DNA from: Rhodocaloribacter litoris | GTDB taxonomy: Bacteria; Bacteroidota; Rhodothermia; Rhodothermales; ISCAR-4553 | Direction: 5' to 3' | Assembly (NCBI RefSeq): GCF_011682235.2 | Contig: NZ_CP076718.1 | Span: forward strand, 2,724,622 to 2,788,621 | DNA: 64,000 bases | Shown: piece after piece, positions 6,076 to 26,678 of the stretch | Layout of the letters: each line of letters opens with the position of its first letter | Position numbering within the stretch: position 1 is the stretch's first letter | The notes under the pieces: model-generated | The model's input: only the letters and a program-made list of their open reading frames with translations | Database searches by the model: none | What the model was told of the DNA's origin: nothing | Position numbers and translations under genes: made by a program

Positions 6076-8505
6076 ATGGCAGAAACGATACGGACACCGG
6101 TCTTCCAGCGGTACGACGTTCTGGAGAAGATCGGCAGCGGGAGTATGGGGGCCGTCTACAAGGCCCGCGACGTCCGGCTGGACCGGTACGTGGCGCTGAA
6201 GGTGCTGCCGCCGGGGCTGCGGGATCATCCCGAGTCGCTGGAGCGCTTCAAGCGGGAGGCACGGGTGCTGGCCCGGATGAAGCACCCGGGCGTGGCCTCG
6301 GTCTACGACGCCGACGTGGAGAGCGATTTCCCCTTCATGGTGATGGAGCTGGTCGAAGGGGAGAACCTGGAGCAGGTGTTGCGTGCCCGGGGACCGTTGC
6401 CGGTCGATGAGGTGATCCGGCTGGGCGGGGAGATCGCGGAGGCGCTCGAGCACATCCATTGCCATCGCATCGTGCACCGGGACATCAAGACGGCCAACAT
6501 CGTCATCGGGCCGGAGGGGCGGGCCGTCATCACCGACTTCGGCATTGCCTTCGTGGCGTCGTTGCCCCGGCTTTCGCACGGCACGCTCGGCACGCCCGAG
6601 TACATGAGCCCCGAGCAGGCCGACGGCCGGCCGATGGACGGGCGGTCGGACCTCTACAGTGTGGGGGTGGTGCTCTATGAGTGTCTCACGGGGAAGGTCC
6701 CGTTCGAGCGGGGCGGGGAGAGCCTCACGGCGCTGACCGATCTGTTGCGCCGGATTCTGGAGGAGCCGCCGCCGTCGCTCCGTAGCCGCCGGCCCGAGGT
6801 GCCGGCCTGGCTGGCCGAGGTCGTCGAGCGGTGCCTGGCCAAGAACCCGAACGACCGCTTTGCCCGGGCGGCCGAGCTGGCGGCGGCCCTCCAGCCGCCC
6901 CCGGTGATCGAGGTGCCGGCCACGGCGCCCGCTTCGCCGGTGCCGGCCACGTGGCAGCCCGAGAGCACCGCCTCGGTCCGATCCTCGACGATTCTCATCA
7001 GCCACGCCGAGGCCGTGGAGGCCGTGCGGTTCAGCCCGGACGGGCGCCGCCTGGCCACGGCGTGCAAGGACCGGGCGATCCGTGTCTGGGAGGTGCGGTC
7101 GGGCCGGCTGCTGCGCCTGTTGAAGGGTCCTTCGGCGCTGTCGGTCTCGTTTCGTCCCGGCGGGGTCTACCTGGCCGCCGGCTGCGTCGACGGCGTCGTC
7201 CGCATCTGGGACGTGGAAGGGGAGCGGCTGGTGCAGGCGATCCATGCCCACACGGGGTACGTTCTCTCGGTGGCCTACAGCCCGGCCGGCGACCACCTGG
7301 CCTCGGGGGCCATGGACGGAGCCGTTCACATCTGGCAGGCCCGCACGGGCCGGCTCGTGCGCACGCTCGGCCAGCACACGGGCTACGTGCTTTCGGTTTC
7401 CTTCAGCCCGGACGGCGCCAAGCTGGCCTCGGGCAGCGCCGACGGGGCTGTCCGCCTCTGGGACGTCAAGACGGGCCGGCTGCTGCGCCGCCTCAAGGGA
7501 CACGCCGGCTACATTCCCTCGGTTGCCTTCAGCCCGGACGGGGTGCGGCTGGCCTCCGGGGGTGTCGACGGGGCCGTCCGCCTCTGGGACGTCCGGAGCG
7601 GCCAGCTGTTGCACAAGCTCCAGGGACACAGCGACTGGGTGATGTCGGTTGCCTTCAGCCCGGACGGGGCGCAGCTGGCCAGCGCCGGGCGGGATCAGAG
7701 CATTCGCCTCTGGGATGCCCGGCGAGGTCGCCCGCTGGAGCGGCTCAAAGGGCACACGGGCGCCGTCATGTCGGTTGCCTTCAGCCCGGACGGCACCCGG
7801 CTGGTCTCCGGCAGCACCGACCACACGGCCCGGCTCTGGCATCTGGGGCGGCGCACGTTCCGGCCGGGACGCTGGCTCCGGTGGCTTGCCGTGGTGCTCC
7901 TCCTGGCGGCCCTGGTCGGCCTGGCCCTCTTTTTCGACCGTCTCCCGCTCGACCGGCTGTCCTTCAACCGGGCGGATCTGACCGGCCTCTTCGGCACCCC
8001 GACGGAAAACAACTCGGCTGTTTCTCGGCGGGGTGCCGGCTCCGGGTCGGTGAGGCCGGTCTCCCCCGCGCCGGTTCAGCCGCTGGCGCCCCCCGGCACG
8101 CACACGCCGGGGGGGCAACGGCCGGCATCTTCGTCCGGCCCGGAAACTTCATCCGAGGGGCGGGCTGGTTCCTCCGTGCTTCGCCCGGCCGCGCCACGGG
8201 ATGAGCTGTACGGGCCCGGTGGTCTCGTGCTGGGGCACGGGGGCTACACCCTCGTCGTGGCCGTCGAGACGAACCGGCACCGCGCGCAGGCGCTGGCTGC
8301 CCGCTACCGGGACGACGGCTTCCGCGTGGCCGTCCTGGGGGTGCTTTTCCAGGGCCGTCTTACGTACCGCGTCGTCGTCGGCCAGTTTGCAGGCTGGGAC
8401 GAAGCCGGCGCGGCCCGCCGCCGCCTCGTCCGGGGCGGGACCGTACCCTTCGACACCTGGATCATGCGCCTTCAACCTGCGGAACGCTGGCGCGTAGAGC
8501 GTTGA
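6076..8505 (+). CDS. Ser/Thr protein kinase with WD40 propeller, TM helix and SPOR-like domain
   Basis: An 809-residue receptor-like kinase. The Hanks-type kinase domain covers 13-270: glycine loop GSGSMGAVYKA (20-30), Lys42, catalytic HRDIKTAN (134-141), DFG (154-156) and TPEYMSPE (173-180). Seven WD40 repeats follow (about 308-592), each ending RLWD-like and enough for a closed propeller. One transmembrane helix lies near 603-621. After a Pro/Ser-rich linker, residues about 735-800 (YTLVVAVETNRHRAQALAARY, RVVVGQF) resemble a SPOR domain, a fold that binds peptidoglycan glycan strands. Expected topology places the kinase and propeller in the cytoplasm and the SPOR part outside. Most bacterial cell-wall kinases carry PASTA repeats in that position. 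It opens a cluster with PP2C, FHA and RodA-PBP genes. The SPOR call is by eye. Confidence 0.9.
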   Translation: MAETIRTPVFQRYDVLEKIGSGSMGAVYKARDVRLDRYVALKVLPPGLRDHPESLERFKREARVLARMKHPGVASVYDADVESDFPFMVMELVEGENLEQVLRARGPLPVDEVIRLGGEIAEALEHIHCHRIVHRDIKTANIVIGPEGRAVITDFGIAFVASLPRLSHGTLGTPEYMSPEQADGRPMDGRSDLYSVGVVLYECLTGKVPFERGGESLTALTDLLRRILEEPPPSLRSRRPEVPAWLAEVVERCLAKNPNDRFARAAELAAALQPPPVIEVPATAPASPVPATWQPESTASVRSSTILISHAEAVEAVRFSPDGRRLATACKDRAIRVWEVRSGRLLRLLKGPSALSVSFRPGGVYLAAGCVDGVVRIWDVEGERLVQAIHAHTGYVLSVAYSPAGDHLASGAMDGAVHIWQARTGRLVRTLGQHTGYVLSVSFSPDGAKLASGSADGAVRLWDVKTGRLLRRLKGHAGYIPSVAFSPDGVRLASGGVDGAVRLWDVRSGQLLHKLQGHSDWVMSVAFSPDGAQLASAGRDQSIRLWDARRGRPLERLKGHTGAVMSVAFSPDGTRLVSGSTDHTARLWHLGRRTFRPGRWLRWLAVVLLLAALVGLALFFDRLPLDRLSFNRADLTGLFGTPTENNSAVSRRGAGSGSVRPVSPAPVQPLAPPGTHTPGGQRPASSSGPETSSEGRAGSSVLRPAAPRDELYGPGGLVLGHGGYTLVVAVETNRHRAQALAARYRDDGFRVAVLGVLFQGRLTYRVVVGQFAGWDEAGAARRRLVRGGTVPFDTWIMRLQPAERWRVER

Positions 8506-8565
8506 ACGGGGTGCCGGCCGGTACACCCGCCGCATAGCGTAGAAGGCCATCTCCGAAACTGGACT

Positions 8566-10257
8566 ATGCCCGACGGTATCTCTCCCCCGCTCGACACGGC
8601 CGGTGGCGGTCACGACCGCGGTGTGCTTCTTTCCTGGGTGGACCTGCGCACCGACCCCTATTCGACCGGGCGTGACGGCGAACGCGAGGTCGGTCCCACG
8701 CTGACCCTGCTCTTTGATCCCGAGTCGCCGTACCGGGATCGCATCGGCCATGTCGTCCTGTTCTATCGCAAGCCGACCCACGATCCGAAGCGCCACGAGG
8801 ACTTTGCGGCCGCCGACGCCACGCGGAAGGAGATCGAGCGCCTGGGCGCCCGCCGCCGCATCAAGGTGGAACTCGTTCCCTGGCACGGCGAGGACCCGAC
8901 CGACCATCGCAGCCTGTTCGAGTTCCTGAACCCGCAGGTGACCGAGCTCGGCGAGCGGTTTGCCCGGCAACTGCTGGTGGTCCACATCAGCCCCGGAACC
9001 CCGGCCATGCAGACGGTGTGGGTCCTCATGGCCGAGATGGGGCTGATCCGCCGGCCGTTCGTGGCGGTGAAGAGCCTGCGCCGGGCCCACCGGGCGGGCC
9101 GTCCCGCCGTCGTACCCGTCAGCCTGGACATCCCCACCTTCTACAAAGCGTTCCACCGGGCCCGCCCCATGCACACCGCCCCGACCGAGGTCGGGGAGCG
9201 CGTCCTGTTCGATCCGCACCACTTCGTCTCCGACAAGCTCAAGCGCCTCTACGCCGATGCCCGCCGCTTCGCCCGGTTGAACGTGCCCATCCTCATCCTG
9301 GGCGAGCGCGGCACCGGCAAGACGACCCTGGCCTCGTGGATCCGGAGCAACAGCCCGTTCCGCCAGCCCCAGAAAGACGCTTCGTGGCCGTCGGTGCCGT
9401 GCAGCCAGTACAGCCCCGAGACGATGCGGGCCGAGCTCTTCGGCTACGTCAAGGGTGCCTTCACCGACGCCCGGCAGGATACCGAGGGCCTCCTCCATGC
9501 CGCCGACGGCGACACCCTCTTCCTCGATGAGATCGGCGACATCTCGCGCGACCTCCAGCGCCTGCTCATCCGCGCCCTCGAAGAGAAACGCTTTACCCGC
9601 GTCGGCGCCACCGTGCCCGAAGAGAGTCACTTCCGCCTCATCACGGCCACCAACCTGCCGTGGGACGAACTCCGAAAACGCCTCGACCCCGACTTCCTCG
9701 ATCGCATCAGCGTGCTCGTGCTGGAGGTGCCGCCCCTGCGCCAGGTGCGTGAAGACCTGCCCTGGCTCTGGCGCCGGCTCTTCCAGGAGGCGCTCGCACG
9801 CGCACAGGTGCCCGCCGGGCGGGTCCACCTCGACGCCGCCGGCCACGAGCGCGTCGTCCGCCACCTGTGCCGCCACCCGCTGCCGGGCAACCTGCGTGAC
9901 CTCTTCCGCGTGGCCTATCACCTCATTGCCACCTGTACCGACGAGCCTGATCCTGACCTTGCCGGAGACGACTGCATCGGCTACGCGCTCGAACAGGCCC
10001 TGGGCGGGCACGCCCGTCCCGTCGAACGGGAACGGCTGCCCCGTGCCGTCGCCGCCGCCTTCGCCCAGGACGAACCGCTCGACCCGCTCCTGCCCGACGG
10101 GCAGATCATCCCCACCCGCACCGTCGAGCGTGCCTTCCGCCGCTACCTGGCTGCCGAACTGCGCCGCATCGCCCGCCAGCGCGGCCTCCAGCCGCAGGAC
10201 CTGTGCGACATGACCGACCGCACCCTGCAGAAGTGGGTCAAGGAAGAGGGAGGTTGA
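8566..10257 (+). CDS. CARF-like sensor + sigma54-type AAA+ ATPase (RtcR-like regulator)
   Basis: 563-residue regulator. The N-terminal 200 residues resemble the CARF domain of RtcR, with HISPGTPAM (140-148) at the ligand-loop position of CARF folds. RtcR uses this domain to sense RNA ends. The AAA+ domain (about 215-465) has Walker A GERGTGKT (246-253) and Walker B LFLDEIGD (318-325). The loop that normally contacts sigma54 reads GAFTDA (297-302) instead of GAFTGA, so coupling to sigma54 may be altered. The C-terminal end (RTLQKWVKEEGG) suits a helix-turn-helix. No rtcB or rtcA gene is near. It sits between the SPOR kinase and the lytic transglycosylase in the same direction. Its target genes and ligand are unknown. 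Confidence 0.85.
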   Translation: MPDGISPPLDTAGGGHDRGVLLSWVDLRTDPYSTGRDGEREVGPTLTLLFDPESPYRDRIGHVVLFYRKPTHDPKRHEDFAAADATRKEIERLGARRRIKVELVPWHGEDPTDHRSLFEFLNPQVTELGERFARQLLVVHISPGTPAMQTVWVLMAEMGLIRRPFVAVKSLRRAHRAGRPAVVPVSLDIPTFYKAFHRARPMHTAPTEVGERVLFDPHHFVSDKLKRLYADARRFARLNVPILILGERGTGKTTLASWIRSNSPFRQPQKDASWPSVPCSQYSPETMRAELFGYVKGAFTDARQDTEGLLHAADGDTLFLDEIGDISRDLQRLLIRALEEKRFTRVGATVPEESHFRLITATNLPWDELRKRLDPDFLDRISVLVLEVPPLRQVREDLPWLWRRLFQEALARAQVPAGRVHLDAAGHERVVRHLCRHPLPGNLRDLFRVAYHLIATCTDEPDPDLAGDDCIGYALEQALGGHARPVERERLPRAVAAAFAQDEPLDPLLPDGQIIPTRTVERAFRRYLAAELRRIARQRGLQPQDLCDMTDRTLQKWVKEEGG

Positions 10258-10566
10258 GCCGGCATCGGCGGGAAGGGTCATGGGTGGCCCGCCCGGGGGA
10301 ACCTGGGCCGGTCCGTCGCAGGCATCCGGGTGCCCTGTGCCCGCTCCCGCCGGGGGGGCCCGCGGGTCCGAACGATCCTTCTTGCCGGGGCGACGAGGGA
10401 TTCGCCCCTCCGGCCCTGAAGAGCGGAAAGAACCAGCACGACACGTCTTTTGAGTCCCCCGGGCGGATCCGGTACGCCCTTTGGTGCCTGCCGGGATGAG
10501 CGACACAGGGCTGCCCTGGCCGCGTCATGCGGCCTGCGCGGCCCGGAAACCGGACCTGCCGACGAC
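10258..10566. other. Non-coding gap with one hairpin
   Basis: 309 bases between the AAA+ regulator and the lytic transglycosylase. The frames crossing it give Arg/Pro-rich shadow translations with no recognisable domain. A 7-bp hairpin (GGGGCGA at 10387-10393 with TCGCCCC at 10402-10408) is the only structure seen, and no T-run follows it. No promoter is recognised. Confidence 0.5.
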
Positions 10567-12720
10567 ATGACGATTGCGACCACGTTACCTCGCCCCTTGC
10601 TTTGTCCCTTTGCCCTGCTGGGCAGCCTGCTTTTCCTCGCCGCCTGCGCCAGCACGGGGCCGGGAGGAACCCCCTCGTGGACCGGTGTCACCGAGCGCCC
10701 GGCCACGAAGCACGAGCCGCGTGGCGAGCCACGCGCCGGCGAGCCCGCGGCGCAGAGCCGGGACGACGCGCCGTTGCCGCCTCCGGACGCCACGATGCTC
10801 CGCGCCCGCATCTACGAAGCCATGGCGCGGGTGAGCTATGCCCGGGCCGGCGGCGACCTCGAGGCCGTCGAGGCCGCGCTCGACGAGGCGATGGAGGGCA
10901 TCCGGCAGCTGGCCGCCACCCCCGGCACCCTCGACGATCCCGAGATGCGCGAACTCTACCGCTCCGTCGTCACCGCCTATGAACAGTACTACGGCGTGCC
11001 GGACACGCTCCAGACCGAATACGGCGAGATCTTCGCCTTTCGCGATGCCATGTTCGAGGCCATGAACGCGCTCGACGAGCCGCTCCTCGAAGACGTGATG
11101 CTGCCTCCTGTGACGCCCGCCGCGACGACCATCCCGCTGCACCGCAACCGCCTCGTCGAACAGAGCATCCGTTTCCTGCTCAAGGAACCGGACAGGCACC
11201 TGCACAAGTGGCTCAGCCGGGCCGCCACCTATTTTCCCATGATCGAGCAGATCCTTCGGGAAGAAGGCGTGCCGGACGAGTTGAAGTACCTGGCGATGAT
11301 CGAGAGCGGGCTCAACCCGCGGGCCCGCAGTCGTGCGAGTGCCGTCGGAATGTGGCAGTTCATGTCGGCCACGGGCCGGGCCTACGGATTGCAGGTGACG
11401 CACTGGGTCGATGAGCGGCGCGACCCCGAGAAGTCCACGCGGGCGGCGGCCCGGCACCTGCGTGATCTGTACGAGACGTTCGGCAACTGGCACTATGTGC
11501 TGGCCGCCTACAACAGCGGGGCCGGGCGGGTGCGGCAGGCCATGCGACGGGCCGGCGTCACCTCGGCCCGAGAGACGCCCGTGTGGGAGATCTACCCGTA
11601 CCTGCCGCGCGAGACGCGCAACTACATTCCCATGTTCATGGCCACCGTGATGGTTGCCTCGAACCCCGGGGCGTTCGGTGTGCAGCCGGTCGCGCCCGGC
11701 CCACGCTATGCCTACGACGTAGCCGAGGTCGAGGGGATGCTCGACCTCGGCCTGGTGGCCGAGATGGCCGGCACCGACGTAGAGACGATCCGTGCCCTCA
11801 ACCCCGAGCTGCGGCAGTGGGCCACGCCGCCTTCGAGCACGCCGTACCGCCTTCGCCTGCCTGCCGGCACGCGCGACCGCTTCACCGCGGCCTATGCGGC
11901 CTTGCCCGAGGAACGCCGGCAGAGCGTGGCAATCCACACCGTCCGTCGTGGCGATACCCTGGGCAAGATCGCCCGGCGCTACGACACCACCGTGGCAGCC
12001 ATCCAGGAGGTGAACGGCCTCCGGGGAACGACGATCCAGGTGGGACAGACGCTCCACGTGCCCGTTCGGTACGAAGCCTATGCCGGGGTCACGGCCTCCA
12101 CCGGCGGGCACGTGCAGTACGGGAGCCGCCCGCCGGGCGAGGACGCCACGCCGGTCGTGACGGCTTCCCTCACGGCCGGGGATCGTGCCGCCGGTCCGGC
12201 ACCCGGTGAGGCGGCATCCGAACACCGCACCCGCGTCCGCTACCACGTCCGGCGCGGCGACAACCTGACCGAGATCGCCCGGCGCTACGGCGTCACGGTG
12301 GACGATCTGCAGCGATGGAACGACCTCACCGGCAGCCGCATCTATCCGGGTCAGACGCTCACGGTCTATCCGGGCGAAGCCGGCACGGCGGCCTCCACCG
12401 GCCGGAAGGTCACCTACCAGGTACGGCCGGGCGACAACCTCACCCGGATCGCCGCACGGTATGGCGTCACGGTGGATGACCTGCGGCGGTGGAACGACCT
12501 CCGGAGCGATCACATCCGTGCGGGCCAGCGGCTAACCATCTATGCCGGCGAGCATACCGGCACCGGCGGCCGGTGGATCTCGTACACCGTCCGGCGCGGA
12601 GACACGCTGACCGAGATCGGCCGCCGCTACGGCGCCACACCGGCCGAGCTGCGCAAGTGGAACGCGCTCCGCACCGACCGCCTCCTGGTGGGACAGCGCC
12701 TGGCGATTTTCGTACGCTGA
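10567..12720 (+). CDS. Lipoprotein lytic transglycosylase with four LysM domains (MltD-like)
   Basis: 717-residue envelope lipoprotein that should cleave peptidoglycan glycan strands. A lipobox LAAC places the lipidated cysteine at residue 27, and this fixes the ATG at 10567 over a longer frame. The SLT domain covers about 215-345, with catalytic Glu246 in AMIESGLNP, then GMWQFMSATG and AAYNSGAGRV, as in MltD. Four LysM peptidoglycan-binding motifs follow at about 455-499, 557-601, 615-659 and 672-716, each beginning VRRGD or VRPGD. Four LysM copies is more than E. coli MltD has. The gene lies inside the kinase/phosphatase/RodA-PBP cluster, which suggests coupled regulation of cell-wall synthesis and turnover. 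Confidence 0.93.
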   Translation: MTIATTLPRPLLCPFALLGSLLFLAACASTGPGGTPSWTGVTERPATKHEPRGEPRAGEPAAQSRDDAPLPPPDATMLRARIYEAMARVSYARAGGDLEAVEAALDEAMEGIRQLAATPGTLDDPEMRELYRSVVTAYEQYYGVPDTLQTEYGEIFAFRDAMFEAMNALDEPLLEDVMLPPVTPAATTIPLHRNRLVEQSIRFLLKEPDRHLHKWLSRAATYFPMIEQILREEGVPDELKYLAMIESGLNPRARSRASAVGMWQFMSATGRAYGLQVTHWVDERRDPEKSTRAAARHLRDLYETFGNWHYVLAAYNSGAGRVRQAMRRAGVTSARETPVWEIYPYLPRETRNYIPMFMATVMVASNPGAFGVQPVAPGPRYAYDVAEVEGMLDLGLVAEMAGTDVETIRALNPELRQWATPPSSTPYRLRLPAGTRDRFTAAYAALPEERRQSVAIHTVRRGDTLGKIARRYDTTVAAIQEVNGLRGTTIQVGQTLHVPVRYEAYAGVTASTGGHVQYGSRPPGEDATPVVTASLTAGDRAAGPAPGEAASEHRTRVRYHVRRGDNLTEIARRYGVTVDDLQRWNDLTGSRIYPGQTLTVYPGEAGTAASTGRKVTYQVRPGDNLTRIAARYGVTVDDLRRWNDLRSDHIRAGQRLTIYAGEHTGTGGRWISYTVRRGDTLTEIGRRYGATPAELRKWNALRTDRLLVGQRLAIFVR

Positions 12721-12728
12721 CACACAGG

Positions 12729-12794
12729 GCGTATTGCGTAGTACGTCTTTCGTACAGGCACTTCTGCCCGCCACGACGCACTACGACGTACGCA
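12729..12794. repeat. Intergenic GCGTAGTACG-type inverted word repeat
   Basis: Bases 12729-12746 (GCGTATTGCGTAGTACGT) and 12773-12793 (ACGACGCACTACGACGTACG) share the words GCGTAGT/ACTACG in opposite orientation around a short spacer. The same words occur in the gap at 56151-56224. The element fills most of the space between the transglycosylase and the FHA gene. Confidence 0.6.
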
Positions 12795-12816
12795 CAACGA
12801 AACACCCCTACGAGCC

Positions 12817-13764
12817 ATGGCCGAGAAGCAGCGTCCCACCGCCCGCCAGATCGTCGACGCCGTCGTGCAGGCCATGCACGAGGCCCGGGAACCGCTCGAC
12901 GAAGACCTCATCCTGGTTCCTCCCGTCTTCGACGTGCTCCTGCACCCGTCGGCGTATCAGGACCTCCAGACACTTTTCCCGCGCATCAAGGAGCAGGCCA
13001 AGAAGCGGCTCGACGCCGAGCTCGAGCGGCTCAACCGGCAGCAAGGGGAGCGGCGTCTCTTCCGGCGTCTGCTTCATCAGGTCCTTCGGCTCTTTTCCGC
13101 CGAGCATTACCTCCGGCGTGCCTCCCGGGGCCGGGCACGCTATGAGCGTGCCGGCGAGGCATGGTCCATCGACATCGGCGTGACCGCCGAGCCCGACGCC
13201 GGCATCGACTATCTGGCCGTCGAGACCGATTTCGCCGCGCAGGCCCCGCCGCAGCTGAAGGGGCGCCCGACGGTGAACATCCGCCGCCGTACCCTGGTCC
13301 TCCCCGATGGCCGCCTCGAAACCGTTCTGACAACCGAGCGGCCCGAACGGGGTGCCGGGGGGGACGCTCGGCCGTCGTCCCGTCGTACGACCCGGCACCT
13401 GCCGGTGCCGTTGCCAGTGACCCCTGTCAATGCGCTGGCCCGCCTCACCTACGAAGACGACACCGGGTCGCATGTGGTCTACATGACCACCCCGCGTTTC
13501 CGCATCGGCCGGTACGATGCGACGGGCGACGTCGACCTGCCGCTCCACACCCTGCCCGACGTTTCCCGGGAGCATGCCTGCATCCGGCACGAGGGCCAGC
13601 AGGGGTTTGCCATCAAGGATCTGAGCCGGTTTGGCGTCACGGTCAACGGGAAAAAGATCCCTCCCGGCGAGAAGGGGGATCCGGAGGCCGGCTGGCACCC
13701 CCTGCCTCCGAAGGCCGAGATCGGGCTGGCCAATGCCGTTTTCATCACCTTCGAAGCCCTCTGA
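12817..13764 (+). CDS. FhaA-like protein with C-terminal FHA domain
   Basis: 315 residues. The C-terminal FHA phosphothreonine-binding domain (about 205-315) shows the conserved RIGR (229-232), SREHA (250-254) and SRFGVTVNG (270-278) residues. The N-terminal 60 residues (ILVPPVFDVLLHPSAYQDL and following helices) resemble the DUF3662 domain of actinobacterial FhaA. There is no signal peptide, so it should be cytoplasmic. It lies between the transglycosylase and the PP2C phosphatase. It would be expected to bind phosphorylated targets of the kinase encoded at 6076-8505, by analogy with FhaA, which recruits phosphorylated MviN in mycobacteria. The start ATG follows a short repeat-filled gap without a Shine-Dalgarno sequence. 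The DUF3662 match is by eye. Confidence 0.85.
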   Translation: MAEKQRPTARQIVDAVVQAMHEAREPLDEDLILVPPVFDVLLHPSAYQDLQTLFPRIKEQAKKRLDAELERLNRQQGERRLFRRLLHQVLRLFSAEHYLRRASRGRARYERAGEAWSIDIGVTAEPDAGIDYLAVETDFAAQAPPQLKGRPTVNIRRRTLVLPDGRLETVLTTERPERGAGGDARPSSRRTTRHLPVPLPVTPVNALARLTYEDDTGSHVVYMTTPRFRIGRYDATGDVDLPLHTLPDVSREHACIRHEGQQGFAIKDLSRFGVTVNGKKIPPGEKGDPEAGWHPLPPKAEIGLANAVFITFEAL

Positions 13765-13767
13765 GCC

Positions 13768-13863
13768 ATGCTGACGACCCTCTTGCATTACCTCTTTCTG
13801 ATGCTGTTGCTCACGTTTGCCGCCCGCCTGTTGCACGTCCACCGCCCGGACCGGCATCCCTGA
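13768..13863 (+). CDS. 31-residue single-helix membrane peptide
   Basis: A 32-codon frame fits exactly between the FHA gene (3 bases upstream) and the PP2C gene (9 bases downstream). It encodes MLTTLLHYLFLMLLLTFAAR followed by LLHVHRPDRHP: one hydrophobic helix and a short positively charged tail. It may be a membrane microprotein of the signalling operon. I do not recognise a family, and there is no Shine-Dalgarno sequence, which is also true of its neighbours. The tight packing and the clear helix argue for a real gene; the short length means chance cannot be excluded. Confidence 0.5.
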   Translation: MLTTLLHYLFLMLLLTFAARLLHVHRPDRHP

Positions 13864-13872
13864 CCTCCGGCC

Positions 13873-14853
13873 ATGTATACCCCGTCCCATATCCTTTCTG
13901 CGGCCTCTCCGGTGAGCGGGTTTCGGGCCTTCGGGGCCACCGACCCGGGGCGGGAGCGCGAGCACAATGAGGACTGTTTCATCTGCGAGCCGGCATGCGG
14001 CCACTTTGCGGTGATCGACGGGGTGGGGGGCTATGCGGCCGGGGAGGTGGCCGCTGCGCTCGCCCGGGACCTCATAGCGGCGCAGCTCCGCCGGGGGACG
14101 GGTACGCCCGGGGAGCGGATCCGCCAGGCCATCGTCGCCGCCAACCGGGTCATCTACCAGCAGGGCCGCAGCCACCCGGGCCGCCGGGGCATGGCCTGCG
14201 TGCTCACCGTCGCCGTCGTCGAGGATGGCTTCGTCACCGTCGGGCACGTGGGCGACACGCGCCTGTACGTGATCCGTCGGGACGGTATCACCAAGGTAAC
14301 CCGCGACCACTCCGTCGTAGGCCTCCGCGAAGACCGGGGCGAGCTCAGCGAGTGGGAGGCTATGCTCCATCCCCGGCGCAACGAGATTCTCCGGGACGTC
14401 GGGTCGGTCTGGTGGGCGCCGGAGGATGAAGCGTGGGTCGATCTGTATCGTTTCCCCTTTTTGCCGGACACGGCTCTGCTCCTGTGCTCGGACGGCCTGA
14501 CGGACCTGGTGCCCAGTGACGTGCTCCGGCAGACGGTGCTGGCTCATGCCGGGCATCCCGGGCGAAGTGTAGCGGCCCTCATCGACCTGGCGAACCGGGC
14601 CGGCGGGTATGACAACATCACGGTGATCGTGGTGGAGGGGGAAGCGTTTGCGCCGGGCTCCCTGCCGGACGCTCCTTCGGATGGGCCGGAAGGACATGAC
14701 GCGCCGCCGGTGGAGGCCGGCATCCGGAAGGTGCACACCGGTTCGTTGCGGCTGCCACCCCCTGTGTGGCCGGCCGGGGCCACGTTGCTCCTGGTGGTCT
14801 TGTTCTGGTTGTTCTGGCGGGTATGGGATGCCGTGCAGCACGCGGGTCCGTGA
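13873..14853 (+). CDS. PP2C-family (PstP-like) protein phosphatase with C-terminal TM helix
   Basis: 326 residues. The metal-dependent Ser/Thr phosphatase domain (about 15-255) has the motifs REHNEDCF (Asp34), VIDGVGGY (Asp49), GHVGDTRLYV, CSDGLTDLV and GYDNITVIVV, so all main metal ligands are present. A linker and one hydrophobic helix near the C-terminus (TLLLVVLFWLFW) anchor it to the membrane with the catalytic part in the cytoplasm. Mycobacterial PstP has the same layout and reverses PknA/PknB phosphorylation, though PstP also has an outer domain that is missing here. The neighbours are FHA and RodA-PBP genes, so it probably opposes the SPOR kinase. Confidence 0.93.
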   Translation: MYTPSHILSAASPVSGFRAFGATDPGREREHNEDCFICEPACGHFAVIDGVGGYAAGEVAAALARDLIAAQLRRGTGTPGERIRQAIVAANRVIYQQGRSHPGRRGMACVLTVAVVEDGFVTVGHVGDTRLYVIRRDGITKVTRDHSVVGLREDRGELSEWEAMLHPRRNEILRDVGSVWWAPEDEAWVDLYRFPFLPDTALLLCSDGLTDLVPSDVLRQTVLAHAGHPGRSVAALIDLANRAGGYDNITVIVVEGEAFAPGSLPDAPSDGPEGHDAPPVEAGIRKVHTGSLRLPPPVWPAGATLLLVVLFWLFWRVWDAVQHAGP

Positions 14854-14935
14854 TGTACGAAGCCGGAGCACCCGCCCGTAGCGGTGTCCGGCGGATGTGG
14901 CCCGGCCCGTCTCACCCTGAATCCTGCGGTTTTTC

Positions 14936-17900
14936 ATGGGAACGCATCGGCGCATCGATACCGCTGCGGTCCGGGTTCTGCGAATGCGCATGCAGGAACG
15001 GCGCCTGTTGCTGGCGGCCTCGCTCCTGGTGGCCTTCGGGCTGTTGCTCACGTACCGGGCGAAGACCCGTGCCTTCGAGCAGGTCGAGGCGCTGCTGGCC
15101 GCCGGAGAGGTTGTGAACCTGAACGCGCTCGAGAGCAGCCGTGCGCTGATGCCGGCCCTGGCGGTCGTCTTTCCGGATCCGGATGACCGCCGCGTCGTTG
15201 CCGGGCATATCTATACCTACGTGCTCCGGAACCGGAAGCCCTGGTTCCTTGGCGATCCGGTGCCGAACGTAGGATTCCTGAACACGGCCGCGCTCGATCT
15301 TCCGGCTCGCCTGGCCGAACAGGGCGGGCCGGTGTTGCGCGAGCGACTGGCGCGCAGCCGGGCCCGTCTCGGCCTGGCGCCCGACGGCCGGGTGAGCGGG
15401 GATTCGGTCCGTACGGTGCACGCCGCCGCCGGCCCGCTGCGTCTCGAAGGACGGGTCGTCGATGAGACGGGAGCACCCATGGCCGGGGTGGCGGTCACGC
15501 TACGAGGCACGCGCGCGGCCGACACCCGTACCGGTCCGGACGGCCGTTTCCGCTTCGAGGGGTTGCAGCCGGGGGACAGTCTCGTGATGCGCCCCGTGGC
15601 GCGCTATCTAGCCTTCACACCCGTGCGGTACGCTCCGCTCTCCGGAAACGGGGAGCACACGTTCCGGGCCCGCCCGCATCGCCTGCCCCTCTTCGAAGAG
15701 GCCGCGGCGTTTCAGCGGCTCAAGCCGCGCCTCGTCGTGCGTGCGCCGGCCGGGTATGCCCGCCGGTTTGCCGGGCTCACGCTGCTCTATTTCGCCGTTT
15801 TCTATGGACTTCATCTTTTCTGGTTCAGACGTCGTTTTGCCGGCGACCCCGTGCTCCTGCCGGTGCTCCATCTGCTCACCGGGCTGGGCTTCATGCTCAT
15901 GCTGAGCCTTCCGGATCCGCTGCGTGACCTCATGCGGGCACAGGGGTTCGTCACGGGTGTGGTGGCCGGCGGGTTGTTGCTCGGAGTGGTCAGCCAGATG
16001 GATTTCCAGGACAAACGGTGGCGCAGTCATACGTTCGCATGGCTCGGGACGGGCGGGATCCTGGCTGCCCTGCTCTATTGCTTCGGTACCGGGCCGGCCG
16101 GTAGCGGGGCTCGGATCAACCTTGTGCTCCCGGTGGTGGGAAGCGTGCAACCGGTCGAGCTCATCAAACTCTGCCTGGTCCTTTTTCTGGCCGGCTATTT
16201 CGCCCGGAACTGGGAATTTCTGCGCAGTCTCCGGCAGCGTGAAGGCCTGCCGCGCCTCCTGCACCGGTTCGATATGCCCCGCCTTCGCGATGTGCTCCCG
16301 GTTGTGGCCGGCGTGCTGTCGGCGCTGCTGATCTTCTTCGCCCTGCAGGACATGGGGCCGGCGCTCGTGCTCACCTGTACCTTTCTGGTGCTCTACGGCA
16401 TCGTGCGCAGCCGCTGGGCGGCCGTTCTCACGGGTTTTGCCGTGCTTGCCGGCGTCTTCTGGTACACCTACAGACTGGAGGTCGTGCCGGTGGTGGCCGG
16501 CCGCATCGAGATGATGCTCTCGCCCTGGGAAAACTTCGTCCGTGGGGGGGAGCACCTGGCCCATGCATACTGGGCGATGGCCACCGGCGGCGTGACGGGG
16601 CAGGGGATCGGGCAGGGGTATCCAGGCTACATCCCGGCGGCACATACCGACATGGTGCTCCCTGCTCTGGGAGAGGAGCTCGGCCTGGCCGGGCTGCTCG
16701 CGGTGTTCGCTCTGTACCTGGTGTTCCTGTGGCGGGCTTTTCGGATCGCGCTCGGCGCACGCGGCGTCTACAGCCTCTTTCTTGGCCTCGGCGTGGCACT
16801 GCTGATCCTCTTTCAGGTGCTTTTCATCGCCGGGGGAGCCTTCGGTCTGATCCCGCTCTCGGGCGTGGTGACCCCGTTCCTCAGCTACGGGAAGTCGTCG
16901 ATAGTGGTGCACTGTGCGCTGGCCGGCATCCTGATGAGCCTCTCGGCCCATCCCGGCACGGAGATCCAGCGCTCGGCACAGCAGGCAAGCTTCGGGCGCC
17001 CCGTCCACTACGTGACCGCCGCGGCGTTTGTGCTCTTCGCCGTGCTCGGTGCCCGGGCCGCGTACATCCAGGGCGGGCAGGCCGACGCCTGGGTGCTTCG
17101 CCCGGCACTCGTCCCCCGCGAGGACGGCGAGCGGGCCTACGTCTACAACCCCCGCCTGCTCGAAGCCCGGCAGCTTCTCACGCGCGGCACCATCTACGAC
17201 CGCAACGGCCTGCCGCTGGCCAGCAGCCGGTGGGACGAGATCGAGCGATTCCGCACCGTGTACGAGCAGCTCGGCGTGCAGGTCGACCGGCTCAACCGGA
17301 CGGATCCCCGCTACTATCCCTTCGGGGCGCTCACCTTCTACCTGCTCGGCGACATCCGGACCCGCGTGAAATGGGGTGCCACGAACAGCCTCTACGCCGA
17401 GCATGCCTTCCTTTCTTACCTGCGGGGATACGACAACCGCCCGGAGGCCGTCGAAAAGCCGCGGAGCCGGGCGGGCGGGACGGCCACCATCGTTCGGTAT
17501 GATTATTCGGAACTGACCGCGCTCGTCCGGCACGGGACGCGCAGCCCGGAGGCCCGGGCCCTCCTTCGCCGCAACCGCGATCTTTACCTGACCGTCGATG
17601 TGCGGCTGCAACAACGGGTGGCCGAGATTCTGGCCGAACGGGCGCCGGCAGGCAAGGTGGCCTCGGCGGTCGTGCTCGATGCCGCCACGGGGGATGTGCT
17701 GGCGTCGGTGACCTACCCGCTGCCCGACCTCAGCCGCCCGGCCGCCGTGCACCGGGATCCCGCTTTCTTCGACCGCGGGTTCGGGCAGGGCGCCAAGCCC
17801 CCCGGCTCTACGTTCAAGCTGGTGACGGCGATGGCCGCCCTGCACCGGGACCGCGACGCCCTGTACCGGACGTACGAGATCCATGCCTTCGACCGCTACG

Positions 17901-18607
17901 CCCGGCGCAACGAACCCACCGGGCGCGTGGATCTGGCGCGGGCCCTCATCGCCTCCTCGAACGTCTATTTCGCCCGCCTGGCCCGTGAGGTCGTCGGGGT
18001 CGATTCGCTGCTGGCGATGATGGAACCGTTCGGCTTCCGGGTGGGCGGGTACGGCCGGTCGTACGCGGCCCGGCGGGCCCTGCTGCTGGAGCCGGATAAC
18101 CTGCGGCAGGCCGGCTTCGGACAGGGGCCGGTGACGGCCAGCCCGCTGGAGGTGGCCCGGGTGGCGGCGGCCATCGCCAACGACGGGGCCCTGCCTCCGG
18201 TGCGGTGGGTCCGCCATCCCGACACGGCGCGGCGGCCCGTGCGCTACGTCCTCCTGCCCCCGGATGCCCGCATCCTCGCCCGGATCATGCGCCGCGTCGT
18301 CACCGACCGGGAAGGGACCGCCCGCGCCCTGCGCGATCTCTCGGTGCCGATCGCTGGAAAGACGGGCACGGCCGAGGAGAAGAAGACCGTCGTGCGGGAC
18401 GGCAGGCCGGTGCGGATCACGCTGAACCATGCGTGGTTTACCGGCTTCGCGCCCTATCATGAACCCGGCACCGGGCGTGGCCCGCGGATCGCCGTGGCCG
18501 TGCTCGTGGAGGAGGGAGGCGCCGGCGGCCGGGTGGCCGCCCCCATCGCCGGTGCCATCGTGGAGGCCGCCGCCGACCTCGGCCTCATCCGCCGTGACGA
18601 ACAATAA
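14936..18607 (+). CDS. RodA/FtsW (SEDS) - class B penicillin-binding protein fusion
   Basis: A 1223-residue single polypeptide combining a SEDS peptidoglycan glycosyltransferase and a transpeptidase. An N-terminal helix (about 22-40) leads to an outer region with a carboxypeptidase-regulatory-like fold (about 165-245). SEDS helices run from about 275 to 670, with PVELIKL (406-412), AHTDMVLPALGEELG (569-583) and LSYGKSSIV (649-657). The usual SEDS form of the last motif is SYGGSS, so Lys replaces Gly. A further helix (about 692-710) precedes the penicillin-binding part. This has STFK (Ser958, Lys961), SSN (1007-1009) and KTG (1142-1144), all the catalytic residues. In most bacteria RodA and PBP2 are separate partners. 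Neighbouring FHA, PP2C and kinase genes suggest phospho-control. The start could also be the ATG 16 codons later. Confidence 0.93.
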   Translation: MGTHRRIDTAAVRVLRMRMQERRLLLAASLLVAFGLLLTYRAKTRAFEQVEALLAAGEVVNLNALESSRALMPALAVVFPDPDDRRVVAGHIYTYVLRNRKPWFLGDPVPNVGFLNTAALDLPARLAEQGGPVLRERLARSRARLGLAPDGRVSGDSVRTVHAAAGPLRLEGRVVDETGAPMAGVAVTLRGTRAADTRTGPDGRFRFEGLQPGDSLVMRPVARYLAFTPVRYAPLSGNGEHTFRARPHRLPLFEEAAAFQRLKPRLVVRAPAGYARRFAGLTLLYFAVFYGLHLFWFRRRFAGDPVLLPVLHLLTGLGFMLMLSLPDPLRDLMRAQGFVTGVVAGGLLLGVVSQMDFQDKRWRSHTFAWLGTGGILAALLYCFGTGPAGSGARINLVLPVVGSVQPVELIKLCLVLFLAGYFARNWEFLRSLRQREGLPRLLHRFDMPRLRDVLPVVAGVLSALLIFFALQDMGPALVLTCTFLVLYGIVRSRWAAVLTGFAVLAGVFWYTYRLEVVPVVAGRIEMMLSPWENFVRGGEHLAHAYWAMATGGVTGQGIGQGYPGYIPAAHTDMVLPALGEELGLAGLLAVFALYLVFLWRAFRIALGARGVYSLFLGLGVALLILFQVLFIAGGAFGLIPLSGVVTPFLSYGKSSIVVHCALAGILMSLSAHPGTEIQRSAQQASFGRPVHYVTAAAFVLFAVLGARAAYIQGGQADAWVLRPALVPREDGERAYVYNPRLLEARQLLTRGTIYDRNGLPLASSRWDEIERFRTVYEQLGVQVDRLNRTDPRYYPFGALTFYLLGDIRTRVKWGATNSLYAEHAFLSYLRGYDNRPEAVEKPRSRAGGTATIVRYDYSELTALVRHGTRSPEARALLRRNRDLYLTVDVRLQQRVAEILAERAPAGKVASAVVLDAATGDVLASVTYPLPDLSRPAAVHRDPAFFDRGFGQGAKPPGSTFKLVTAMAALHRDRDALYRTYEIHAFDRYARRNEPTGRVDLARALIASSNVYFARLAREVVGVDSLLAMMEPFGFRVGGYGRSYAARRALLLEPDNLRQAGFGQGPVTASPLEVARVAAAIANDGALPPVRWVRHPDTARRPVRYVLLPPDARILARIMRRVVTDREGTARALRDLSVPIAGKTGTAEEKKTVVRDGRPVRITLNHAWFTGFAPYHEPGTGRGPRIAVAVLVEEGGAGGRVAAPIAGAIVEAAADLGLIRRDEQ

Positions 18608-18812
18608 CCGGCCGGCGGCTTATGTTTATGCCGGATTTCGGAGTGCCGGTGGTGCCCGGCGGCGTTCGGATGACGGGGCCGCCCGGCATCGGGGCGGGAT
18701 CCTGCACCGCGAAGCCCCGGCACGACGGACCTCATTCCGTTGAAACGGTTTAAAGTACGGGAGTTGACGGGATCTTCGACATCTGCACACGTTCATCCAT
18801 CCACGCCTGACC

Positions 18813-20183
18813 ATGGAACCCGCGAACGCACAGCTCACGCACCGGGCCCGCGTGGGCGATGCCCTCGATCTGTTGCACCGGGTGCTCCATCCCTATATCG
18901 AACGCGAGATGCGGGCGGTCTACGGGGACCGGTGGGAACGCGAGGCGCGGGGTGTGTTGCACGGCAAGCCGATTGAGACGTGGGATACGAGTGACCTGCT
19001 CACCCTCCTTTACACGAAGTTCCATCCGGTCTTTCGCGACATCGGTCACGAGGGGCGGAGCTGGGTGAGCCTGCTCCGGGAGATTCGCAAGAAGTGGGCG
19101 CACCAGGGGACGCTCTCGCTCGATGAGACGCGCCGCACGCTGGAGACGGCGATCCTGCTCTTGCGGGCCATCGGTGCCGAGCCCGAGGCAGAGCGGCTGG
19201 AACCGCATGTGCTGGACCTGATGCGGTCCGAGCTGGAGGAGCGCCTGGCGCCGGGCGAGGACGCGGCCTGGATGGAGAAGGCGCGGGAGGCTATCGAGGC
19301 CCGGAAGGAGGCGGTCGGCCGGAGCCGGGACCGCACCCCCGGGGAAGGGGTCCGTGCGCTCTGGGAGGCCGGCGTCCGCCGGATCCGGACTCTGTTCCAT
19401 CGCCCGCCCTCGGAGCCGCTAGAAGTGCGCCGCACCCTCCTCGACGCCATCGAGCACGCCGCCGAGCCGTACCGGCGCGACTTCCCCTTCAACCGGCTCG
19501 TCGTGCACGTCTGTGTGCCGGACGAGCGCACCCGGCAGCGCTACGAGGCGGCGCTGGAGCGGCAGCGTGAACCTTTTGCCGTGGCCGTCCTGCGTCGCCT
19601 GGCCGATGCCCGCATCCCCGTGCCGGCTAGCCTGCACGTGAGCTGGCGCTTTCATCGTACCCCGCCGAAGAAACTCGAAGCCGCGTTCGAGGCCGTGCCC
19701 TACCACATCGAGTGGCAGCGGCGCCGTCCGGCCGGCACCGCCACGTTGAAGGTGCTCCGGGGGCGGGCGCACAAGGAGCAGTACGTGATCCGGGGCGGTG
19801 CGCCCGTCACACTCGGGCGGCAGGCCGAGGTCACCGACGCGCGCGGGCGGGTCGTCTGGCGCAACGCCGTCGCGTTCCTCGACTACGAGGACGACCGGCT
19901 GACCGAGGAGGAACGCGAGGTGCATGCCACCATCTCCCGCGTCCATGCCCGCATCGAGTACGACGAGACGGAAGATGCCTTCCGGCTCTACGACGCGCAG
20001 AGCACCTGCGGGACGTCCGTCGTGCGCGAGGGCTTTCTGGTGCCGTTCCAGGTGCGGCAGCAGCCCGTGCCCCTGCAGGACGGCGATCTCATCTATCTGG
20101 GCAAGGCCTGTCTCCGGTTCAACCTGGGCCGTCCTTCGGGACGGGCGCCGCGCCGGGGCCGCCCGCCGCGTTCCGCTACCTGA
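18813..20183 (+). CDS. Swt1-type HEPN domain + FhaA-like region + FHA domain protein
   Basis: 456 residues in three parts. Residues about 15-125 match the Swt1-type HEPN domain. They include RSWVSLLREI and the RxxxxH motif RKKWAH (Arg92, His97), the catalytic signature of HEPN ribonucleases. A middle region (about 210-315, FNRLVVHVCVPDERT and following) resembles the FhaA N-terminal domain. The C-terminal FHA domain (about 325-440) has VTLGRQ, ISRVHARIEY and STCGTSV. No signal peptide is seen. An FHA module tied to a possible RNase suggests phosphothreonine-controlled RNA cleavage or scaffolding; this is inference. It closes the cluster that begins with the SPOR kinase. Whether the HEPN part is active is not known, since some HEPN domains only bind. 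Confidence 0.78.
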   Translation: MEPANAQLTHRARVGDALDLLHRVLHPYIEREMRAVYGDRWEREARGVLHGKPIETWDTSDLLTLLYTKFHPVFRDIGHEGRSWVSLLREIRKKWAHQGTLSLDETRRTLETAILLLRAIGAEPEAERLEPHVLDLMRSELEERLAPGEDAAWMEKAREAIEARKEAVGRSRDRTPGEGVRALWEAGVRRIRTLFHRPPSEPLEVRRTLLDAIEHAAEPYRRDFPFNRLVVHVCVPDERTRQRYEAALERQREPFAVAVLRRLADARIPVPASLHVSWRFHRTPPKKLEAAFEAVPYHIEWQRRRPAGTATLKVLRGRAHKEQYVIRGGAPVTLGRQAEVTDARGRVVWRNAVAFLDYEDDRLTEEEREVHATISRVHARIEYDETEDAFRLYDAQSTCGTSVVREGFLVPFQVRQQPVPLQDGDLIYLGKACLRFNLGRPSGRAPRRGRPPRSAT

Positions 20184-21199: not shown

Positions 21200-21844
21200 A
21201 TGGAAAAGAAATCCAGCTTTGCCCTGCAGAGCCTGCTGGCGGTTCTGATCCTGAATGCGCTGCTGCTCGTGACGATTTACGTGATCGGGGGAGAGGCGCT
21301 GGCCGGGAAGGCGCCCCTGGTCTTTGGCCTGGGCGGTATACTGACGCTGGTGCTGTGGTTCGTGGTGACGCGGCTGGCCCGTCGCCTGGAAGGAGCTTCC
21401 CCGAAGGAGGGGGCAGCGCGGGCGCCGGCCGAACGCCCCGCGCCCGCGCTGCCGGAGCAACCTGCCGAGGCGGCGGCCCTCCAGCTCCTTGCCATCCTCC
21501 AGCGCAAAGGCCGCCTGCTCGACTTTCTCCAGGAGGATCTGAGTGCCTACGGTGACGCCCAGATCGGCGCGGCCGTGCGGGCCGTCCACGAGGGCTGTAA
21601 GAAGGCGCTCGAGGAGCACGTCTCGCTGGTGCCCGTGCTCGACCGGCCCGAGGGCAGCCCGGTCACCGTCGAGCCGGGCTTCGACGCCCGGGCCATCCGG
21701 CTCACGGGCAACATCACCGGTGCGCCGCCGTTCAAAGGCACGCTCCGTCACCGGGGCTGGCGCGTCGAGCGGATCGAGCTGCCGACGCTGATGCACGCGC
21801 AGGACCGTGTGGTGGCGCCCGCCGAGGTGGAAGTCGGCACCTGA
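21200..21844 (+). CDS. DUF2760 domain protein with two N-terminal TM helices
   Basis: 214 residues. Two hydrophobic helices (about 8-30 and 38-60) are followed by an Ala/Pro linker. The DUF2760 domain then runs from about 95 to 210 and is recognised by RLLDFLQEDLSAYGDAQIGA, VHEGCKKAL, PGFDARAIRLTGNITG and PFKGTLRHRGWRV. DUF2760 genes commonly precede Hsp70-like genes in bacteria, as here: two Hsp70-like genes follow after 152 bases. The protein probably anchors or partners these chaperone-like ATPases at the membrane. That role is inferred from context, and no biochemical function is established to my knowledge. Confidence 0.85.
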   Translation: MEKKSSFALQSLLAVLILNALLLVTIYVIGGEALAGKAPLVFGLGGILTLVLWFVVTRLARRLEGASPKEGAARAPAERPAPALPEQPAEAAALQLLAILQRKGRLLDFLQEDLSAYGDAQIGAAVRAVHEGCKKALEEHVSLVPVLDRPEGSPVTVEPGFDARAIRLTGNITGAPPFKGTLRHRGWRVERIELPTLMHAQDRVVAPAEVEVGT

Positions 21845-21996
21845 GATCTGCCGGCACCTGGTTCGGGGGGGATGCGGGCCCCGGGAAGTAAAGCCCGGGG
21901 GTGCCTCTCATCCCCCTGTGTCTTCGGGGCGAGGACGATCCGTTTGCTTCCTTTCCCGCGCCCCCGCCAGGCCCGTAAACCCTTTCCGAACGTACC

Positions 21997-23837
21997 ATGA
22001 GCGATCCCAGATACATCGTCGGCATCGACCTGGGCACCACGCACTGTGTGGTGGCCTACACCCGTGCCGCGCCGGAGGCGCTGGAACGGCCCGAGATCCG
22101 GCTGTTCGAGATCCCGCAGGTGGTGAGTCCGGGCGAGGTGCAGGCCCGTCCGCTTCTGCCCTCGTTTCTGTTCCTGCCCGGCCCGCACGACGTGCCCGAG
22201 GGCGGTCTGGCGCTGCCCTGGAAGCCGGACGCCGGCGAGGCGGTGGGGGAATATGCCCGCGAGCGCGGGGCCGAGATTCCGAACCGGCTGGTGGCCTCGG
22301 CCAAGTCGTGGCTCTCGCATACGGGGGTCGACCGTACCGCGCCCATCCTGCCGTGGGATGCCCCCGGGGATGCCCGCCGCGTCTCGCCCGTCGAGGCCGC
22401 CACGCGCTACCTGGCCCACATCCGGGAGGCCTGGAACCACGTCATGGCGGCCGGCGACCCGCAGGCCCGCCTCGAAGAGCAGGAAGTTTATCTGACCGTT
22501 CCCGCCTCCTTCGACGCCGTCGCCCGGGAGCTGACGGTGCAGGCCGCCCGGGCCGCCGGGCTGGAAAAGCTGACGCTCCTCGAGGAGCCCCAGGCTGCCT
22601 TCTACGCCTGGCTCGAAGCCCGGGGCGATGCCTGGCGCGAGGAGGTCCACGTCGGCGAGTCCATCCTCGTCTGCGATGTCGGCGGTGGCACCACCGACTT
22701 CAGCCTCATCGAGGTCGTCGAGGAAGACGGTAACCTGGACCTGCGCCGCGCCGCCGTCGGGGATCACATCCTCCTCGGCGGGGACAACATGGACCTGACG
22801 CTGGCCTACGCCGTCCGGGCCCGGCTGGCGCAAGAGGGCACCCGCCTCGACAACTGGCAGTTCCGGACGCTGGTGCACGGCTGCCGGAAGGCCAAGGAGC
22901 ACCTGCTGGGCCATCCGGACCTGGAGGCCGTGCCGGTCGTCATCCCCGGGCGAGGCTCCGCCCTCATCGGCGGCACCATCCGCACCGAGCTGACGCGGCA
23001 GGAGATCGAGGCGATCCTGGTGCAGGGCTTCTTCCCCGAGACGCCGCCGGACGCTTTCCCCGAGCGCAGGCCGAAGGTCGGGATGCGCGAGATGGGCCTG
23101 CCCTACGAATCCGACCCGGCCATCACCCGGCACCTGGCCTACTTCCTCCACCGGCAGGTGGCCGGGAACGGCGAGGCGGGCGTCGCCTTCCCCTCCGCCG
23201 TGCTTTTCAACGGCGGGGTGATGAAGGCCGGGTCGCTGCGCGAGCAGGTGCTCCGCGTGCTCCGGCAGTGGAGCAGCAACGACGCCCTGCGGGCCCTTCC
23301 GTCGGTGGACCTGGACCAGGCCGTGGCCATCGGTGCGGCCTACTACGGGCTGGCGCGGAAGGGGCGCGGCATTCGCATCCGTGCGGGTACGGCCCGCTCC
23401 TATTACATCGGCATCGAGAGCGCCATGCCCGCCGTGCCCGGTATCCCCGCGCCGATGAAGGCCCTGTGCGTGGTTCCCTTCGGTATGGAGGAGGGCACCG
23501 AGGCCGACATCCGGGGCCGGGAGTTCGGCCTCGTCGTCGGCGAGCAGGCCGTCTTCCACCTGCTGGCCTCGAACACGCGCAAGACGGACCCGCCCGGCGA
23601 GATCATCGAGGACTGGGACGGCGAGCTGGCCGAGGTCATCACCATGGAAACGACCCTTCCGGCCACCGACGCCGAGGGCGGCGGCACCGTCCTGCCCGTG
23701 TGGCTCCACAGCAAGGTCACCGAGATCGGCACGCTCGAGCTCTGGTGCGTGGCCCGCGACGGCGACCGGCGGTGGAAGCTGGAGTTCAACCTCCGCGACG
23801 TACCGCAGGAAGCCGGTGGCCCGGCCGAGCAGCACGG

Positions 23838-23841
<4 letters not shown>
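21997..23841 (+). CDS. Hsp70-family ATPase (first of a pair)
   Basis: 614 residues with the Hsp70/actin ATPase fold. The phosphate-1 loop is GIDLGTTHCVVAY (9-21), phosphate-2 is VCDVGGGTTDFSL (about 224-236), and the later VLFNGGVMKAG segment is the adenosine-motif region. The C-terminal about 130 residues do not look like the DnaK substrate-binding domain with its LLLDV linker, so this is not a housekeeping DnaK. No dnaJ or grpE is adjacent. The gene overlaps the next one by 4 bases (ATGA), implying translational coupling. It may act with its neighbour and the DUF2760 protein as one complex; this is inferred from the operon. Confidence 0.9.

Positions 23842-26678
<2,837 letters not shown>

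Follow-up and report, generated by a model that had tools for sequence, protein, structure and literature searches.

A single reading frame joins a SEDS module to a class B PBP

We analysed a window of 64,000 nucleotides from Rhodocaloribacter litoris, whose genome is a single 4.5 Mb contig. At 14936-18607 lies an open reading frame that starts with ATG and runs for 1223 codons with zero internal stops (Table 1). The first-pass annotation had read both a SEDS glycosyltransferase and a class B penicillin-binding protein (PBP) in this one 1223-residue protein, and the uninterrupted frame with Pfam matches to both families bears this out. The order of parts is a transmembrane segment (TM), a periplasmic part with a CarboxypepD_reg domain, a TM, a ten-TM SEDS module, a short linker, one TM and the class B PBP, with TMs assigned by hydropathy and AF2 models. 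By the same means, the SEDS C terminus and the PBP N terminus are both placed in the cytoplasm, and the topology therefore permits the fusion. The outer carboxypeptidase-regulatory-like domain proposed earlier was matched in Pfam at residues 170-215, its periplasmic side following from the topology. We considered this domain as a defining part of the fusion family and rejected it, as it is missing from relatives G008 and G006 and from most Acidobacteria.

Table 1. Features of the fusion locus and its flanking genes, in window positions.
Feature	Position	Strand	Basis
Ser/Thr kinase-WD40-TM-SPOR protein, ~6.4 kb upstream of fusion	6076..8505	+	Pfam; same order in G008
SLT lytic transglycosylase, four LysM, same gene run as fusion	10450..12720	+	Pfam
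FHA-domain protein, upstream of fusion	12817..13764	+	Pfam
PP2C-type phosphatase directly upstream of fusion, hydrophobic C-terminal segment	13873..14853	+	Pfam; segment by sequence
Single-chain SEDS glycosyltransferase-class B PBP, 1223 aa	14936..18607	+	ORF, Pfam, homologues
Extra N-terminal TM (res 24-42)	15005..15061	+	hydropathy; helix at same place in AF2 model
Periplasmic insertion (res 43-277)	15062..15766	+	Pfam; periplasmic side from topology
CarboxypepD_reg domain (res 170-216), within insertion	15443-15583	+	Pfam, 1.7e-11
Second extra TM (res 278-296), ahead of SEDS core	15767..15823	+	hydropathy, AF2 model
SEDS module, 10 TM (res 306-672)	15851..16951	+	Pfam FTSW_RODA_SPOVE; AF2 model
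PL2 motif ARINL replacing canonical RWxDLG, Trp missing	16109..16123	+	alignment
Catalytic Asp D572 (E. coli RodA D262, FtsW D297), in PL4 HTD (HTD at 570)	16649..16651	+	alignment
SYGKSS (res 650-655), K653 = FtsW G381	16883..16900	+	alignment, motif location
Short cytoplasmic linker (res 673-689, ~17 residues), SEDS TM10 to PBP TM	16952..17002	+	hydropathy, alignment
PBP TM (res 690-708)	17003..17059	+	hydropathy, AF2 model
PBP pedestal region (res 709-880), GTIYDRNG motif	17060..17575	+	sequence, AF2 model
Transpeptidase domain (res 910-1210; S958xxK, S1007SN, K1142TG)	17663..18565	+	Pfam 6.7e-38, motifs
HEPN_Swt1-FHA protein directly downstream of fusion	18813..20183	+	Pfam

Is the joined frame maintained? 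The independently assembled relative G001 (L046) carries the same fusion at 71% identity. Because dN/dS against this relative is ~0.21 for the SEDS half (dN 0.19, dS 0.89) and ~0.26 for the transpeptidase half (dN 0.18, dS 0.69), both halves are under purifying selection. In the same comparison, the linker between them is far looser than either half.

Each half adopts the fold of its family

The FTSW_RODA_SPOVE profile (PF01098) matched residues 342-672 at 4e-53. Modelled alone with AF2 (58 sequences), the SEDS half reached pLDDT 93 and pTM 0.93, and the model aligned to FtsW (8p1u_A) with Z 37.6 over 343 residues. Scores against the NCBIfam equivalogs ftsW (166 versus a cut-off of 337.5 bits) and rodA_shape (138 versus 336.7) fell below threshold.

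The second half has a transpeptidase domain with SxxK, SxN and KTG and has no GT51 domain, which makes it a class B PBP; the STFK, SSN and KTG motifs are intact as first described, at residues 958, 1007 and 1142. The pbp2_mrdA equivalog scored 165 bits, below its cut-off of 455, and the 1223-residue protein gave no Pfam match to PBP_dimer. For the comparison with the RodA-PBP2 complex suggested in the first-pass annotation, the halves were taken singly, the SEDS half matching RodA (Z 31-33) and the transpeptidase half PBP3 (Z 38). The full-length AF2 model has pTM 0.62, and we make no claim from it about how the halves are placed relative to each other; a fold search with it returned matches to the transpeptidase half alone, and among the matches listed no solved chain aligned over both halves.

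The SEDS active site departs from the canonical one in PL2 and at the FtsW G381 position

An alignment of the SEDS halves was used to look for loss of catalytic residues. The main clade of fusions retains the Asp of HTD and the equivalents of FtsW Q147, R246 and G371; those of E150 and K153 are nearly always retained, with E150 replaced by Ala in G001 and K153 by Arg in some members. The PL2 tryptophan is usual in SEDS glycosyltransferases, though not strictly defining. It is missing (RodA W102, FtsW W138) in the window protein and throughout the clade, where RWxDLG has become (R/K)(V/I)NL; whether it was deleted or replaced varies with the alignment. Unfused SEDS proteins can lack it too: two Bacteroidota RodA-type proteins (L157, L169) have Ile, and it is also missing in Lachnospiraceae pairs. 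E. coli FtsW W138A does not complement (PMC8765783), and RodA W102A has reduced activity (PMC10449877).

The altered motif SYGKSS, singled out in the first-pass annotation, is real in that K653 stands where FtsW has G381, a site at which G381V and G381D are dominant-negative (PMC8765783). It is not outstanding: the 24 main-clade rows have K (10), G (6), N (6) or R (2) here, and some ordinary SEDS genes of fusion-carrying genomes encode Arg (L149), Ser (L160) or Leu (L153, L165) at this site. The second Gly of SYGGSS is thus not strictly invariant in the SEDS family. We rejected the idea that SYGKSS is unique or inactivating, and it is no sign of a dead or a novel enzyme. Loss of the PL2 Trp, which the first-pass annotation did not mention, is the more striking departure. 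Both changes are clade features that alone do not show functional loss, because both sites also vary in ordinary SEDS proteins. Changes at P196 and R243 in the main clade are common to unfused Actinobacteria and Bacillota pairs. The idea that K653 compensates for the lost FtsW R243 was dropped, as unfused pairs with Gly at 381 share the Val at the R243 site.

The fusion family is patchy and spans several phyla

Single-frame homologues, 35-71% identical to the window protein, extend beyond its own family to others of the same order, to further Bacteroidota, to Acidobacteriota and to one Verrucomicrobiota (Opitutaceae) metagenome-assembled genome (MAG). The search of related genomes that had been proposed was fruitful: six other genomes among 60 relatives carry a one-frame fusion, namely G001 (71% identity), G008 (65%), G006 (49%) and G004, G018 and G028 (~45%), the last with a second, more distant copy. 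The distribution is patchy, with fusions in 7 of 114 genomes of the order and 11 of 296 of the phylum. In Acidobacteria, the phylum of one holder, 6 of 199 genomes gave a match at E 1e-60, two of the six being weak or partial. No relatives of the fusion were found in the viral contigs searched.

All 23 main-clade rows cluster in the SEDS tree with support of 100, and in the transpeptidase tree the main clade lies entirely on one side of a 100/100 branch. Fusions from Lachnospiraceae and Thermoleophilia fall among unfused pairs in the SEDS tree, which forces at least four changes of state; both trees are midpoint-rooted and do not give the direction of change between fused and unfused. In each tree the Opitutaceae row falls with one from Acidobacteriota, a grouping that fits gene transfer or MAG contamination. 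Our literature search, with most subscription journals outside its coverage, returned no description of the main clade. A family with this outer addition and these neighbouring signalling genes thus appears to be undescribed, though SEDS-PBP fusions as such are known.

Kinase, phosphatase and FHA genes accompany the fusion

PP2C, SEDS, class B PBP and Ser/Thr kinase genes are linked at 6076-20183 of the window and in homologues, the window kinase lying 6.4 kb upstream of the fusion; this kinase is likely the partner of the fusion. The first-pass annotation had overlooked this signalling context. Its C-terminal part holds SPOR only, with no PASTA repeats found, and two Spirosoma kinases gave no PASTA match either. 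With SPOR in place of PASTA, the WD40-TM kinase is possibly a wall-sensing one. Two further groups of genes were noted nearby: a sigma-54 activator AAA protein upstream of the fusion (8566-10257), whose unassigned N-terminal region may be a sensor, and, at 21200-26678, a DUF2760 protein with two Hsp70-like proteins after it, of which the second carries DUF3731.

An FHA gene next to the fusion is kept across phyla. Gene order in G008 is the same as in the window, and Acidobacteria with enough flank mostly show FHA-PP2C-kinase-fusion-FHA. A Spirosoma oryzicola plasmid (unnamed7, L182:2631-13187) carries the whole cassette, FHA-PP2C-kinase-kinase-fusion-FHA, with the fusion annotated as FtsW/RodA/SpoVE family; WP_232563956.1 is a Spirosoma homologue of the window protein. 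Not every member has the kinase beside the fusion: in G004, G018 and G028, only the FHA neighbours are retained. Separately, PP2C and SEDS-PBP share one 1384-aa frame in G008 (L022:14262-18416) with no stop between them, a possible phosphatase-polymerase-transpeptidase fusion in which an internal ATG could still begin a separate protein.

The fusion is predicted to be an additional synthase

In the genome that holds the window, an FtsW-like SEDS gene lies at 2207888 and a RodA-like one at 1528635, both separate from the fusion. Class B transpeptidase genes are present at 1556849 and, close to the FtsW-like gene, at 2213655, and two more genes encode a transpeptidase domain; the FtsW-, RodA-, FtsI- and PBP2-like names are based on position and tree. 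All 13 holder genomes searched (13/13) encode ordinary SEDS proteins as well as the fusion. Because every holder checked has them, the 1223-residue protein is predicted to be an additional, accessory synthase. Two genomes, G380 and G386, each contain two long fused-size frames; in each, a further SEDS match falls within a long frame (G380:C168:47893-48942, 1263 aa; G386:C32:4818-5897, 1213 aa), which perhaps reflects two fusions per genome.

Proposed activity of the single-chain enzyme

What does the fused protein do? We favour an active, accessory bifunctional peptidoglycan synthase, probably switched by the neighbouring kinase, PP2C and FHA proteins; we infer the activity, regulation and cellular role, and give this reading a probability of roughly 0.7. 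The SEDS module, with D572 as its base, would polymerise lipid II, and the nascent strand would be cross-linked by the class B transpeptidase tethered to it, through S958. The geometry would be that of RodA-PBP2 and FtsW-FtsI, but the fusion would lock the stoichiometry at 1:1. The enzyme would add to the ordinary FtsW-FtsI and RodA-PBP2. The membrane Ser/Thr kinase, PP2C phosphatase and FHA proteins nearby would probably act as the switch, by analogy with pstP-rodA-pbpA-pknB of Actinobacteria. An active synthase is supported by the maintenance of the fused clade, the purifying selection on both halves, the retained catalytic Asp, Gln and Arg and transpeptidase triad, and the matching folds; artificial fusions of RodA to PBP2, arranged in this same order, are active (PMC6207328; PMC10449877). 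Against it stand the clade-wide PL2 Trp loss and the Lys at a position where G381V and G381D in FtsW are dominant-negative and, as regards the proposed switch, the lack of an adjacent kinase in some members.

These two departures, at sites that are both sensitive in FtsW, could potentially be explained by a SEDS half that no longer polymerises and instead acts as a scaffold or binds lipid II, so that only the transpeptidase works. We regard this as unlikely, given that the catalytic Asp and the Q147, K153 and R246 equivalents are almost always retained, that the SEDS half is under purifying selection, that the Trp is also missing in L157, L169 and the Lachnospiraceae pairs, and that some ordinary SEDS proteins have R, S or L in place of the second Gly. 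Slightly less probable still is a SEDS half active on a modified acceptor or donor, or on another undecaprenyl-linked substrate, with the PL2 and SYGK changes reflecting a retuned substrate pocket. The changes are indeed clade-wide and lie in loops lining the lipid II sites of RodA (PMC10449877), but the attached class B transpeptidase with its intact triad implies ordinary peptidoglycan strands, and several of the altered sites vary in unfused SEDS-PBP pairs too. The joining of two genes by assembly or sequencing error, the artefact feared at the outset, has a negligible probability, since the same fusion occurs in single frames from independent assemblies of several phyla, a finished Spirosoma plasmid included, and chance or mis-assembly is excluded as the origin of the fused frame.

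The clade shows natural loss or alteration of sites found essential in E. coli FtsW (W138 and G381), and this would limit models of the SEDS mechanism if the enzyme proves active. In a natural fusion the ratio is set at 1:1 and no binding step is needed, making the coupling of polymerisation and cross-linking tractable; the structural work considered here used engineered fusions. The signalling genes linked to the fusion (kinase, phosphatase and FHA), in one case on a plasmid, suggest a portable unit for regulated wall synthesis. More tentatively, and with the odds against it, these genes may form a horizontally spread phospho-signalling cassette that acts on a dedicated single-chain synthase. 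With its SEDS site retuned (PL2 Trp absent, second Gly variable), this would be an extra enzyme for a special mode of growth or repair, controlled by a kinase that senses the wall through SPOR.

Comparison with known systems

The fusion shares the SEDS fold, the class B transpeptidase, the catalytic Asp and the SxxK, SxN and KTG motifs with the RodA-PBP2 and FtsW-FtsI complexes (8tj3, 6pl5, 8p1u, 8bh1). Unlike them, it is one chain with two extra N-terminal TMs and a periplasmic insertion, without the PL2 Trp or a PBP_dimer Pfam match, and is an extra copy in its genome.

The fusion had been presented as standing alone against a normal two-protein complex, a contrast that is not supported in that form. 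Single-ORF SEDS-PBP fusions exist, with reference to the Rhodococcus RHA1 genome (Nygaard et al. 2023, PMC10449877), and separate ones occur in Lachnospiraceae and Thermoleophilia. The latter likewise have SEDS then PBP in one ORF, but they occupy separate places in the SEDS tree, and their sampled frames (894-1033 aa) leave no room for the large periplasmic insertion. The Atopobium parvulum structure 4jbf, because its transpeptidase chain is numbered 523-949, suggests the transpeptidase half of another natural fusion.

Linkage of pstP, rodA, pbpA and a PASTA kinase is known (PMC6554272). The Actinobacteria pstP-rodA-pbpA-pknA-pknB locus and similar Bacillota pairs likewise have SEDS before PBP, with PP2C, Ser/Thr kinase and FHA genes; many unfused pairs of both groups sit between PP2C and kinase genes, and they also carry an extra N-terminal TM region like that of the fusion. 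The midpoint-rooted tree does not establish these pairs as sisters of the fusion clade. The Actinobacteria locus has two genes and a PASTA kinase, whereas the window has one fused gene and a kinase with WD40 and SPOR.
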